Shown piece by piece: positions 15,313 to 19,768 of a stretch of 64,000 nt of DNA (its first letter is position 1; each line of letters opens with the position of its first letter). The translations under genes and the position numbers were made by a program. Source of the DNA: Rhodopirellula sp. (GTDB taxonomy: Bacteria; Planctomycetota; Planctomycetia; Pirellulales; Thermoguttaceae); the NCBI GenBank assembly GCA_012728855.1, contig JAAYEH010000479.1:1-64000 (forward strand), in the 5' to 3' direction. The notes beneath the pieces are model-generated. The model was not told the DNA's origin, searched no databases, and worked only from the letters and a program-made list of their open reading frames with translations.

Positions 15313-17880
15313 ATGACCGTGCTGCTCGACCAGTTCGTCGAAACGCTCTCTCAAAGCGGCCTGATGGCCCGCGGCGAGATCGAGGCGTTTCTCGATGCGC
15401 TCGATGCCGACGCGCGGCCTGAAAACGGCGAGGCGTTGGCCAGACTGCTGGTCCGGCACGGCAAGCTGACAAGGTTTCAGGCGCAGTGCATCTACCAGGG
15501 CAAGACGCGCGGCCTGATGATGGGCGACTACGTCGTGCTGGACCGCATCGGTGCCGGCGGCATGGGCCAGGTCTACAAGGCGCGGCACAAGGTGATGAAC
15601 CGTGTGGTGGCGCTAAAGACCCTGCCGCCGGCGGCCACCGACTCGGACCAGGCCGTGAAGCGCTTCCACCGCGAGATCGAGGTGGCCGCGCGGCTCTCGC
15701 ATCCCAATATCGTCACGGCCTACGATGCCCGCGAGGACCACGGCGTCCACTTCCTGGTGATGGAGTGTGTCGAGGGGACGGACCTCGCCCGGCTGGTGAA
15801 ACAGCGTGGCCGGCTACCGTTGCAGACGGCGCTCGACTACATCCTCCAGGCGGCCCGAGGGCTGGAGTACGCCCACCATCAACAGGTCATTCATCGCGAC
15901 ATCAAGCCCTCGAACCTCGTCCTGGATCGCCAAGGGACGGTCAAGATCCTGGACATGGGCTTGGCCCGACTCAACGCCATGATCGGCGCCGCCGATGAGA
16001 CCGGCGAGGAGACGCTCACCGGCACGGGGCAGGCGATGGGCACGATCGACTACATGCCGCCCGAGCAAGCGGAGAACACCCGCTCCGTCGACCAGCGGGC
16101 GGACATCTACAGCCTCGGCTGCACGTTGTACACGCTCTTGACCGGGCGCATAGTCTACCCGGAGGACACGCAGGTGGCCAGGCTGCTGGCCCACCGCGAG
16201 GCCCCGATCCCCTCGCTCATCGACCATCGGGCCGACGTGCCGGAAGCCCTCGATGGCGTTTTCCGGAAGATGGTGGCCAAGCGGCCGGAAGACCGGTACG
16301 GGACGATGACCGAAGTGATCGCCGAATTGGAAGCAATTGCCACCTCGCGGCCCGACCAGCATGCCGAGACGACGGCCTTTGAGTCGGCGTCCCAGTCCCG
16401 CGCCGAAAGAGCCGCAAGTCACGAGGAGTCACTGGCGCTGGATCTTCCGGTCATCTCGCCGGTCGATGAGTTCCTTCGAGTGCATCGGAGGGTGAGCCCG
16501 AAGGAAAAGAAGATCGCTGCGGCCGTGGCGTCGGCAGCGGTGTTGCTGGTGCTTGTTTTCGGCGTTGTGTTCACGTTCCGGACAAGCGAAGGGACGCTGG
16601 TGGTCAGCGTCAGCGACCAGGACGCGGAGATCAGTGTCGACGGCGGGAAGTTCACGCTCATGGCGCCCGGCGACGAGGAGCCGGTGGAGATGGAATTGGC
16701 CGAGGGCGAGCACACGCTGAAGGTGACCAAGGGCGGATTCCAGACGTATACGCAGACGTTCCAGATCAAGTCGGGCGGCCGAGAGGTGTTCGATGTCAAG
16801 CTGATGCCGTGGGCGACGGCCGAAGCAGACAGCGGAGAGTCGAAACCAGCACCCTCGATTGCTGAGGCCGAAATCGGGCCGGTCGCGCCAGTGCCCCCGA
16901 GCGATCCGGCGGCGTGGAAGGCGATCCTGGCGGCCGACGCCCCTGCTCCTGCCATCGCTCCCTTTGACGCGGCCACGGCGAAGAAGCACCAGCAGGCCTG
17001 GGCCGATTACCTGGGCAAGCCGGTCGAGCAGGAGGTGGAGTTGGGCGGCGGTGTGAAGCTGACGATGGTGCTGATCCCGCCGGGCGAGTTCGTGATGGGC
17101 TCCTCCGCAGAAGAACGAACTCGTTTCCTCAAAGAGGCGAAGGCGACAGGCAACCAGTGGACCATCGGGCAGATTCCCACGGAAGGGCCGCAGCATCGCG
17201 TGCGAATCACCAGGCCCTTCCGGTTGGGCCGGCATGAAGTGACCGTGGGCCAGTTTCGCCAGTTCGTCGACCAGACGGGGTACAAGACGGACGCCGAGCG
17301 GGACGGCAAGGGTGGTTATGGCAGCGTCGACGGTAAGTGGTTTCAAGACCCGCGGTTCGTTTGGAATCTTGGCCCGGGCTTCGAGCAGACGGACGAGCAC
17401 CCAGTGGTGAACGTATCGTGGAACGATACGATAGCCTTCTGCGAGTGGCTGTCGGAGAAGCAAGGCGCCGAGTGTACACTGCCAACGGAAGCGCAATGGG
17501 AATATGCCTGCCGGGCGGGCACGACGACTTTCTGGCACAGTGGGGACGACGAGGCCAGGTTGCAGGAATATGCATGGTTCAGCGCGAATTCGCGCTTTAA
17601 GGCGTATCCGGTCGGGCAGTTGGCGTCGAACGCGTTTGGCCTTTACGACATGCACGGCAACGCGCGCGAGTGGTGTGCGGATTGGCAGGAACCCGGGTAT
17701 TATGCGAACTCACCGGTGAATGACCCGGCGGGGCCTTCAGCGGGCACGAACCGCGTGGGCCGCGGCGGTAGCTGGCGCCACGGCGCCAGGGACTGCCGGT
17801 CGGCGTACCGCGACGGGAACCCGCCGGGATACCGGAACAGCAACCTGGGCTTCCGCGTCTCCCGAGTTCTGGCGAAATAG
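15313..17880 (+). CDS. Membrane Ser/Thr protein kinase fused to SUMF1-type domain
   Basis: 855 residues in four parts. Residues ~1-70 are a helical N-terminus. A Hanks-type kinase spans ~72-340 with the glycine loop [12 protein letters not shown], Lys102 (VALK), catalytic HRDIKPSN (Asp196) and DMG in place of DFG (Asp214), so it should be active. One transmembrane helix lies at ~401-422, followed by a PEGA domain (~425-500) and a formylglycine-generating-enzyme (SUMF1/EgtB-type) domain from ~605, with typical blocks [65 protein letters not shown] and RGGSW. Inferred topology: kinase inside, PEGA and SUMF1 outside. In such fusions the SUMF1 fold may act as a ligand sensor rather than an oxidase. 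Confidence 0.93.
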
Positions 17881-17909: not shown

Positions 17910-17975
17910 CGAACGGGGCTGGAGCCGTGGTGTGCGGAGCACACCCGAGCGGAGCGAGAGGTCCAGCCCCGTTCG
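17910..17975. repeat. Palindrome with 14-bp perfect arms just after the kinase gene
   Basis: Arms CGAACGGGGCTGGA and TCCAGCCCCGTTCG are exact reverse complements separated by 38 bases, and the spacer contains its own hairpin GTGTGC-GGA-GCACAC. It starts 30 bases after the kinase stop. It could fold as a cruciform-like RNA and act as a terminator, but lacks a T-run on either strand, so I class it as a dispersed palindromic repeat. Confidence 0.7.
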
Positions 17976-18085
17976 TACCGTAGCGAGCGAGGCGCGGGGG
18001 GCAAGGTGTTCCTGGGTCTGGGCGAAGCCTTAGCGCCAAACGCCCTTGAGGCAGTCTTGCATTAGGAATCGCAATTCACTAGCCC

Positions 18086-18131
18086 GACACGCGAGCGAGG
18101 GAAAACGCCGTAGAATCCTCGCTTGCGCGTC
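18086..18131. repeat. Imperfect 15-bp inverted repeat
   Basis: GACACGCGAGCGAGG at the left pairs with CCTCGCTTGCGCGTC at the right with two non-identical positions, around a 16-base loop. It lies between the kinase-proximal palindrome and the tandem repeat block. No coding potential. It looks like a member of a dispersed palindrome family rather than a gene-specific regulator. Confidence 0.55.
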
Positions 18132-18171
18132 GCACAAGTGACTTCACATAGTACGGGAGGCCGCGCGGTGT

Positions 18172-18771
18172 GCCACTGCTTGGAGTTGAACGGGCTGTCC
18201 ATCGGGACCGATGTTTCCACAACTCCAAGCAGTGCGACGTTGGGAGTCAAACGTCGCATCGCACTGCTTGTGATTGTGGTAAGCCTTACGCAAGTTGAGA
18301 ATCCGTCCAATCATAGCAGTGGCACACGGCAACCCGTTCTTCCAGAACCGTGCAAGGTCCGTCAGAGATGCCATACCGCTTGGAGTTGAACGGGCCCTCC
18401 ATCGGGACCGATGCTCCCACAACTCCAAGCAGTGCGGCGTTGGGAGTCAAGCGTCGCATCGCACTGCTTGTGATTGTGGTAAGCCTTACGCAAGTGGAGT
18501 ATCCGTCCAATCACAAGCAGTGGCACACGGCAACCCGTTCTTCCAGAACCGTGCAAGGTCCGTCAGAGATGCCAAACTGCTTGGAGTTGAACGGGCTGTC
18601 CATCGGGACCGATGTTTCCACAACTCCAAGCAGTGCGACGTTGGGAGTCAAACGTCGCATCGCACTGCTTGTGATTGTGGTAAGCCTTACGCAAGTGGAG
18701 TATCCGTCCAATCACAAGCAGTGGCACACGGCAATCGGTTCTCCCGGAATCGTGCAAGGTCAGTTAGAATC
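18172..18771. repeat. Three tandem ~200-bp units, each with several hairpins
   Basis: Units start at 18172, 18370 and 18571 (198, 201 and 201 bp; copies 2 and 3 about 90% identical). Each holds: a 14-bp stem ACTGCTTGGAGTTG / CAACTCCAAGCAGT with an inner CATCG-GGAC-CGATG hairpin; an 8-bp stem GCGACGTT / AACGTCGC; a 14-bp stem ACTGCTTGTGATTG / CAATCACAAGCAGT; and GTTCT-TCC-AGAAC. Several differences between copies keep pairing through G-U in the plus-strand RNA. Copy 1 has lost a base in the third stem and copy 2 has a mismatch in the first. The last bases overlap the UbiA gene stop. No spacers, so not CRISPR. Possible structured non-coding RNA array or mobile-element remnant. Confidence 0.8.
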
Positions 18772-19768
18772 GCCACAGCGACGGAAGCGGCGACGGCGCC
18801 ACGTTGAGCCATTCGCCCAAGCAAGGGATATCGACGAACATCAGCCCGACAAACACCGCCATGCATAGCGCCAGGTAGCCCATCAAGGGGCGATCCCGAT
18901 AGAGACGCTCGGGATGCTGGACCGGACTGTCCGGCCGCAGCGCCACGTGCAGGTAGTGGCAGAAGAACCCGGCGATCAGCGGCGTGCTGAGGATCAGCTC
19001 GAAATGATAGCGGATGATGAAGACGCCGAGAAACAGCCCGCAGAACACTGCGTAGAAAAGCATGCAGACCAGCAGCGTGCTCTCGCTGTAGTGGCGGAAA
19101 CTGCGGCGGTAGTCGCCGGCGCGGGCGGCGTCGGCGATCGATCGATACTCGGCGAACCGTTTGCTCGCCATGAAGAACGCTCCCAGCATCCAGTAGGCCA
19201 CCAGCAGGGAGACCGGCGGTATCTCGACCGGGTTGATCACCGCCCAGCCCATCAGCAAGCGGATCGGATTGTTGACCGATTCGCTCAGCACGTCCAGGTA
19301 GGGGAGATCCTTGGTCCGGACCGGCGGGATGTTGTAGAGCAGGCCCATCACCCACAATAGCGCCGCGGCGAAGAAAAACGGCCGATTCACGCTGCCGGCG
19401 ATCGATAGTCCCGCCGCCCCCAAGGCCGCCCATTCGACGTAAGCCGCCATCACCAGCACGCGACCGGCGGGAATGGGACGATGGCACTTGACCGGATGAT
19501 GGCGGTCGGTGGCGGCGTCGAGGATTTCGTTGAGCACGTAGTTGCTCGACGCGACCAGACAAGCGGCGACCAGGCCCACTGCCACCACGCCCAGCGATGC
19601 CCAGGTGAGCGTCTGCGGGTAACAGAAGACCGCCAGAACGACGCCCAAGAGCATGAACACATTCTTGAACCAGTGATCCAGCCGGGCGATCGATACATAA
19701 GGCAGGATTACGTCAAAGCGGCTGCCGGCCGTCAGGACAACGGGACGCGAAACGCTGACACTACTCAT
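18764..19768 (-). CDS. UbiA-family prenyltransferase, decaprenyl-phosphate phosphoribosyltransferase-like
   Basis: 334 residues with about eight hydrophobic segments. The first Asp-rich motif is NEILDAATDRHHPVK (residues 80-94, Asp84 and Asp88), followed by CHRPIPAG; the second loop carries ASKRFAEYRS. That combination is closest to DPPR synthases (Rv3806c type), which transfer phosphoribose to polyprenyl phosphate, rather than to quinone or haem enzymes, whose second motif differs. The ATG is preceded by GAGG at good distance. It follows a GT-C glycosyltransferase on the same strand after 44 bases, which fits a lipid-linked pentose donor and a membrane transferase using it. Its 3' end runs into the tandem repeat block. 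Confidence 0.8.
   Translation of the reverse strand: MSSVSVSRPVVLTAGSRFDVILPYVSIARLDHWFKNVFMLLGVVLAVFCYPQTLTWASLGVVAVGLVAACLVASSNYVLNEILDAATDRHHPVKCHRPIPAGRVLVMAAYVEWAALGAAGLSIAGSVNRPFFFAAALLWVMGLLYNIPPVRTKDLPYLDVLSESVNNPIRLLMGWAVINPVEIPPVSLLVAYWMLGAFFMASKRFAEYRSIADAARAGDYRRSFRHYSESTLLVCMLFYAVFCGLFLGVFIIRYHFELILSTPLIAGFFCHYLHVALRPDSPVQHPERLYRDRPLMGYLALCMAVFVGLMFVDIPCLGEWLNVAPSPLPSLWRF

Follow-up and report, generated by a model that had tools for sequence, protein, structure and literature searches.

The described systems closest to the element reported here are non-autonomous repeats and the insertion sequences associated with them. The repeat unit of pneumococcus (RUP) is an IS630-Spn1-associated MITE of 107 bp with 108 intergenic copies; it has terminal inverted repeats, inserts at TA, and has been proposed to be mobilised in trans by an IS630-type transposase (PMC2229807). 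IS630 and ISY100, of the Tc1-mariner type, insert at TA and duplicate it (PMC2170065), and the reference list of that paper includes a report whose title states that IS630 prefers the TA in 5'-CTAG-3' (Tenzen and Ohtsubo 1991). The REPINs and BIMEs are intergenic, with inverted conserved ends around a variable middle, hairpins with compensatory changes and tandem clusters; in Pseudomonas fluorescens SBW25 these clusters are tandem repeats of near-identical units that include their flanks (PMC3116915). Finally, the REPs tagged with GTAG or CGTC are palindromic dimers reported also in Planctomycetes (PMC3733652).

The planctomycete element described here resembles each of these systems in part. 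Like RUP, it is short and gene-less, carries terminal inverted repeats and inserts at TA; unlike RUP, it targets CTAG, often at a stop codon, its interior is a long palindrome that varies by genus, and no partner IS was found for it. It shares TA insertion and TA duplication with IS630/ISY100, and the target CTAG with IS630, but these encode a transposase and the planctomycete element does not, nor do DDE_3 genes track its frame. The likeness to REPINs and BIMEs extends to all the features listed above, and the tandem, near-identical units of our locus recall the SBW25 clusters, but here a complete 59-nt hairpin makes up each half, no RAYT lies nearby and the pair is nested in an outer frame. 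Compared with the tagged REPs, also palindromic dimers, it has larger hairpins and a foot, GTGTGSC, instead of a tag tetranucleotide. Our literature search, in part over excerpts, found no description of this planctomycete element, and the consulted text of a review of prokaryotic MITEs (PMC10969869) does not mention Planctomycet, stop codon, CTAG, IS630 or nested. The element is best filed as a variant of the MITE/REPIN-type non-autonomous elements, with an unusual target, CTAG, that is compatible with stop codons, and a genus-specific palindromic cargo.

Results

A tandem hairpin array has the stop codon of a UbiA-family gene at its end

In the window, that is, the whole stretch of 64,000 nt that was analysed, positions 18175-18768 are taken up by three units of 200/201 nt that follow one another head to tail (TRF: period 201, 3.0 copies, 93% matches, 0% indels, score 1055). 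The first-pass annotation of this DNA had described three tandem hairpin-rich units of about 200 nt with four stem-loops each, and both statements hold. By direct reading, each unit has two 14-bp stems, A (ACTGCTTGGAGTTG/CAACTCCAAGCAGT) and B (ACTGCTTGTGATTG/CAATCACAAGCAGT), an 8-bp stem in the spacer (GCGACGTT/AACGTCGC) and a weak, terminal 5-bp stem (GTTCT/AGAAC). The differences between copies that had been listed are also there, namely two A-to-G changes in the 8-bp stem of copy 2, the GGAAT variant in copy 3, the mismatch in copy 2 (a C.A in stem A) and the deletion in copy 1 (short, in stem B). The sole reported detail that we did not find is a change from G-U to G-C in the first stem, read here as the 14-bp stem A. 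The features are as follows.

18168..18174, plus strand: GTGTGCC, the left foot of the module that the inner hairpin pair forms (from the sequence and the consensus of left arms)
18175..18233, plus strand: unit 1 hairpin A, 59 nt (profile match, 57.1 bits)
18263..18319, minus strand: unit 1 hairpin B, inverted, with a small deletion in the outer arm (profile match, 39.7 bits)
18321..18363, minus strand: unit 1 right frame arm (arm profile, 19.5 bits)
18375..18433, plus strand: unit 2 hairpin A, with one C.A mismatch (profile match at 18378-18433, 48.0 bits, extended to the full model ends)
18463..18521, minus strand: unit 2 hairpin B (profile match, 55.8 bits)
18522..18564, minus strand: unit 2 right frame arm (arm profile, 19.5 bits)
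18576..18634, plus strand: unit 3 hairpin A (profile match, 57.1 bits)
18664..18722, minus strand: unit 3 hairpin B (profile match, 55.8 bits)
18723..18767, minus strand: intact right frame arm of unit 3, with the end CTAA (read on the minus strand as CTAACTGACCTTGCACGATTCCGGGAG; arm profile, 32.4 bits)
18764..18766, minus strand: TAA stop codon of the UbiA-family gene, inside the CTAA frame end (ORF list)
18764..19768, minus strand: UbiA-family gene (Pfam UbiA, E 1e-22; the protein ends ...LWRF*)

A decayed left frame arm lies upstream of the left foot, and the intact right arm of unit 3 has a single mismatch to the order-wide pattern of terminal inverted repeats. The UbiA gene ends TGG CGA TTC TAA, in which CTAA is the frame end; judged from this layout, the array would form the 3' untranslated region of that gene. 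At the unit junctions, GTCAGAGATGCCA[T/A] is followed directly by hairpin A, and GTGTGCC precedes hairpin A of unit 1. Because the junction AGAGATGCCA shares TGCCA, we infer that the three units may have arisen by unequal exchange or slippage at this short match beside the right arm. The array probably arose when the inner and right-hand part of an element of about 235 bp was duplicated locally in tandem, and we place good confidence in the explanation to which this belongs.

Upstream of the array, a different long palindrome is found at 17914-17980 (CGAACGGGGCTGGA...TCCAGCCCCGTTCG), just past the gene of a fusion protein (15313-17880, plus strand) with Ser/Thr kinase, PEGA and C-terminal FGE-sulfatase domains. 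An imperfect inverted repeat at 18073-18125 (CTAGCCCGACACGCGAGCGAGGG...CCTCGCTTGCGCGTCG) adjoins the array.

The hairpin pair is a dispersed repeat

With unit 3 as query, the window's own Pirellulales genome (721 contigs that total 11.3 Mb, with contamination estimated at 8.9%) gave 51 matches at E<=1e-3, which correspond to about 42 places after overlapping self-reverse matches were merged by manual reading. The units had been proposed as a possible RNA array; this search shows dispersed repeats instead. The exact pattern ACTGCTTGNNNTTG..CAANNNCAAGCAGT has 58 sites in this genome, and the reversed-pattern control has none. A 59-nt hairpin profile run on the fetched loci detected 45 pairs and 15 singles, and 43 convergent pairs were left when two duplicate loci were dropped (15 singles, 58 sites). 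The pairing step demanded a plus match and then a minus match; in the raw profile list no other order of neighbours was seen, except across the units of the array. Hairpins A (triplet GAG) and B (mostly TGA) match one and the same profile, and are therefore paralogous, facing each other.

The whole element, of about 235 bp, consists of the two paralogous 59-nt hairpins inside an outer inverted-repeat frame that ends CTAAATGACCTTGCACGATTCCGGGAG. Its inverted, conserved palindromes around a variable spacer are those of a REPIN doublet. The imperfect terminal inverted repeats of the frame, the small size, the lack of coding capacity and the dispersal over about 42 places beside unrelated genes are those of a MITE. 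The proteins flanking the elements are mostly unrelated, since comparing all against all gave just 12 pairs, including 4 in which a locus that had been fetched twice met itself, which rules out segmental duplication together with genes.

The exact hairpin pattern is present in 2 of 119 genomes of the family. It also occurs in nine stretches of GTDB contigs, seven of which belong to Pirellulales MAG_21 and have contig coordinates identical to those of genome G001; stretches in Bacillus xiamenensis and Photorhabdus heterorhabditis lie inside coding genes with non-complementary triplets, and were taken as chance. No IMG/VR contig has the exact pattern, by which viral spread was ruled out.

Several variants were seen among the copies. 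Five loci (L061, L064, L070, L072 and L073) form a subfamily of hairpin pairs with a spacer of 81-91 nt and mostly different outer arms (GGGTGGCMCTGCTTGCG...TGCGATYSGTGTGSC), which contain the GTGGCNCTGCTTG motif again. Loci L203 (C669) and L063 (C33) have 124 identical bases in common and different flanks, suggesting recent spread. A further repeat, AGAGCCTATCCCAAAACC..GGTTTTGGGATAGGCTCT, adjoins the hairpin elements at L019 and L021.

The frame is shared among genera and its interior is not

Alignment of the flanks revealed outer inverted arms on the left and right, CTRAATGACCTTGCACGATTCCGGGAG..GTGTGSC. A copy in the sister species (L130) is a frame without the hairpin pair, with the apex GTGTGCCACAC, and a 98-bp stretch of it, used as query, had matches in 10 of 99 relatives. 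The frame end pattern was found in 12 of 396 genomes of the order, covering 9 genera, and one genome (G063) has 87 sites. In ten complete frames, drawn from nine genomes, the ends are CTAA..TTAG or differ slightly from it, and of the 45 pairs of interiors only 2 are similar: the ends persist and the interior changes wholly. Long perfect palindromes occur as cargo in other genera; the cargo in the genus of G019 is related to ours, with the same foot, GTGTGSCACTGCTTG, and a different remaining stem. The copies of genus g13 (G013 and G063) are 81-97% alike over about 178 bp, and the match stops at the element boundaries, the flanks being otherwise different. Two sister-species frames (L149:1046-1190 and L280) hold a long near-perfect hairpin, CTGTAGGGAACGC..GCGTTCCCTACAG, a motif found also in the frame of a different family (G058, L265).

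Within the window's own genus, the frame ends are much more decayed than the inner stems: over 31 copies, identity is 96-99.5% in the stems, 74-76% in the loops, 68% in the spacer and 61% in the right arm. When the window copies are compared with L004, the inner 147 nt are 87-89% identical and the arms 43-51%, about the 44% obtained with shuffled arms, so the hairpin pair is not always carried along by its frame. That the inner stems outlast the frame ends, which transposition should require, points either to a pair that itself moves or converts between frames, as REPINs do, or to selection at gene ends.

The frame inserts into CTAG and duplicates TA

Among 31 rows of complete frame candidates, two of which are spurious second partners, the left flank reads CTA in 16, the right flank TAG in 21, and both in 13. 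One clean empty/filled pair was found (L286 vs L294), in which the empty site reads CGACTAGGCGG and the filled one CGACTA[element]TAGGCGG. At greater length, the empty site in G013 is CCGCTCGACTAGGCGGCG, and the filled site in G063 is CCGCTCGACTA[AATGAGC...GGTCGATT]TAGGCGGCG. The flanks are identical at 118 of 124 positions, the insertion lies in CTAG, and TA is duplicated; the upstream gene natively stops at this TAG, and the filled site has TAA at the same codon. This pair and the conservation of the flanks demonstrate CTAG insertion with TA duplication, the duplication being seen at one site, in genus g13; the window's own genus gave no precise pair. A second contiguous empty site (flanks identical at 106/124) reads CCGG, not CTAG, and so supports the empty site and not the target sequence. 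CTAA itself was ruled out as a target-site duplication, as the two ends read CTAA and TTAG.

CTAG is scarce in the sister species, where 1.34 Mb of DNA has 368 sites against 4417 expected; stop codons account for 35 of these, the interior of genes for 155 and intergenic DNA for 178. Since only 35 of the 213 CTAG outside genes are at stops, target choice alone may not explain the frequency with which elements meet stop codons.

Elements meet gene 3' ends, and copies turn over

With gene ends called by a simple codon-model gene finder, the distance to the hairpin is 37-48 nt, which is where the frame ends, for 21 of 60 gene 3' ends and for 4 of 52 gene 5' ends (p 5e-4, Fisher test). The window array, with the UbiA stop within its CTAA, follows this rule. 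At L017, the upstream gene stops with a TGA inside the frame end, and its sister-species ortholog stops at the same codon with TAG; the gene at L005, where the frame end is truncated, also stops at the same codon as its sister-species ortholog.

Six element loci have one or more orthologous flanks (>80% protein identity) in the 1.34 Mb fetched from the sister genome, namely L005, L012, L017, L019, L021 and L071. At none of the six does the matching place in the sister species carry the hairpins; copies therefore turn over. L005 and L017 are syntenic on both sides, L021 and L071 have the 5'-side ortholog only, and L019/L173 (gene C-terminus unaligned) and L012/L187 (element 76 nt past the stop) are weaker cases of empty sites.

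Searches for a partner transposase

A DDE_3 search of the own genome and 60 relatives found no transposase with the frame ends, which, in draft genomes, is weak evidence. Multi-copy ISs are often lost from draft assemblies, and all the genomes used here are drafts. The own genome contains a single match to DDE_3 (IS630-type), and G001 and G013 carry the frame and have none. Scored against the frame ends, the terminal repeats at 31 DDE_3 loci reached at best 17/24, within noise, so that no IS630-type partner with matching ends emerged from these genomes. The own genome also has 20 Y1_Tnp matches; a significant hairpin was present in the fetched 1.5-kb flanks of 0/20, so no RAYT partner was recognised at these loci. 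Open reading frames between neighbouring copies in L061, L062 and L065 were read by eye as cellular genes, not a transposase.

Pairing is conserved, with a modest plus-strand lean in the spacer

Complementary triplets, of six sequence types, are kept in 88 of 99 distinct hairpins and missing in 11, in agreement with the earlier claim that pairing is preserved through change. In the 31-copy alignment, the 8-bp stem (helix 3) is paired in 70.7% of cells, and the 5-bp stem (helix 5), paired in 24.7%, is not conserved. The first-pass annotation had also held that changes favour pairing on the plus strand. The spacer hairpin leans that way, and the 14-bp stems show no clear bias: their G.T and A.C cells over 43 pairs number 11/6 in stem A and 7/7 in stem B (18 vs 13 in total, p 0.47). 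The spacer has 38 G.T and 8 A.C cells, where column shuffles give 39.5 and 13.5, and its 133 Watson-Crick cells exceed all 500 shuffles. In 26 of the 31 copies it is the plus strand that gives the spacer its stabler fold; base composition predicts 20.1 +/- 2.3, and 200 composition shuffles reach a maximum of 26. The plus-strand lean of the spacer hairpin is a real but modest point for an RNA reading.

Where the flanking genes are in tandem, 17 elements share their orientation and 10 oppose it; when the array is taken as one element, the ratio is 15:10 (p 0.42). The side facing a nearby stop codon is A in 12 cases and B in 11. A stretch of 603 nt over the array folds better than its shuffles on both strands (plus, z -7.2; minus, z -15.9; 0/20 shuffles as good in each). 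The whole window has no match to a curated RNA family in Rfam at the gathering threshold, and no tRNA or tmRNA.

Discussion

We consider it likely that the locus belongs to a non-autonomous, nested-palindrome mobile element of about 235 bp, made of a MITE frame with a REPIN-like cargo, whose three units arose by local duplication. The outer layer, the frame, would insert into CTAG and duplicate the central TA, giving C-TA-[AATGACC...GGTCATT]-TA-G, in a mode like that of IS630/Tc1-mariner transposases, and a transposase, probably of IS630 type, is presumed to act in trans. Where the CTAG holds a TAG stop, the stop would become TAA and the protein would be unchanged. The second layer, the cargo, would in the own genus consist of two paralogous 59-nt hairpins, inverted in the manner of a REPIN, on the foot GTGTGSCACTGCTTG; its stems are nearly invariant, its triplets covary and its loops drift. 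Selection presumably keeps the hairpin DNA, or a 3'-UTR RNA, and the hairpin pair appears to be exchangeable between frames.

The reading as a dedicated RNA, in which a plus-strand transcript of the three units would fold into a functional array, draws on stems far more conserved than loops, on the triplets, and on the spacer, with its Watson-Crick excess and a plus-strand stability beyond composition. We nevertheless find it very improbable: the copies are dispersed between genes, beside unrelated ones, at insertion sites that the two species do not have in common; the long stems show no G.U/A.C bias, the elements show no orientation bias, the 5-bp stem is not conserved, Rfam has no match and the minus strand folds equally well. 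A role at mRNA 3' ends fares better, although we put it below an even chance. Here a hairpin cassette of whatever origin would be kept because it works in the 3' end, as a bidirectional terminator, for RNA-end protection or for the insulation of convergent genes. This would account for the position of the frames at stop codons and for stems that remain perfect as the terminal repeats decay. The proximity to stop codons, the long perfect palindromes carried by other genera and the convergent genes that meet at several elements fit this role; yet many copies are located upstream of genes or have the nearest stop hundreds of nt away, and the orthologous gene ends of the sister species do without copies.

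The pair may instead be a REPIN proper, moved as single-stranded DNA by a RAYT (Y1 HuH transposase), with the outer frame incidental. Its inverted doublets with conserved ends and variable middle, its singlets and its clusters of near-identical tandem units are as in the REPINs of PMC3116915, the genome has Y1_Tnp matches, and other outer arms are found around the hairpin pair as well. We think this less likely than not, however, as no Y1 locus has a significant hairpin in the fetched flanks, there is no GTAG or CGTC tag, and a 14-bp stem with a 31-nt loop is larger than the REPs of 20-40 bp in PMC3733652.

Beyond the mobile nested element that we favour, we entertain, tentatively and with more doubt than belief, a broader proposal: the Pirellulales frame would dock preferentially at TAG stops, converting the CTAG-borne TAG to TAA and leaving the protein unaltered, with an exchangeable palindrome inside that is long, unrelated from genus to genus and here an inverted hairpin pair. 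It would so deliver to 3' UTRs hairpins that are kept by their hosts as structures of the gene end, the inner stems staying perfect after the transposon ends decay. Conserved and compensating tandem hairpins alone are no evidence of an RNA. If the proposal is true, bacterial 3' ends would be rewritable in one step, by a harmless landing on the stop codon with interchangeable hairpins, and IS630-type MITEs and REPIN-like palindromes would be linked in one nested structure.
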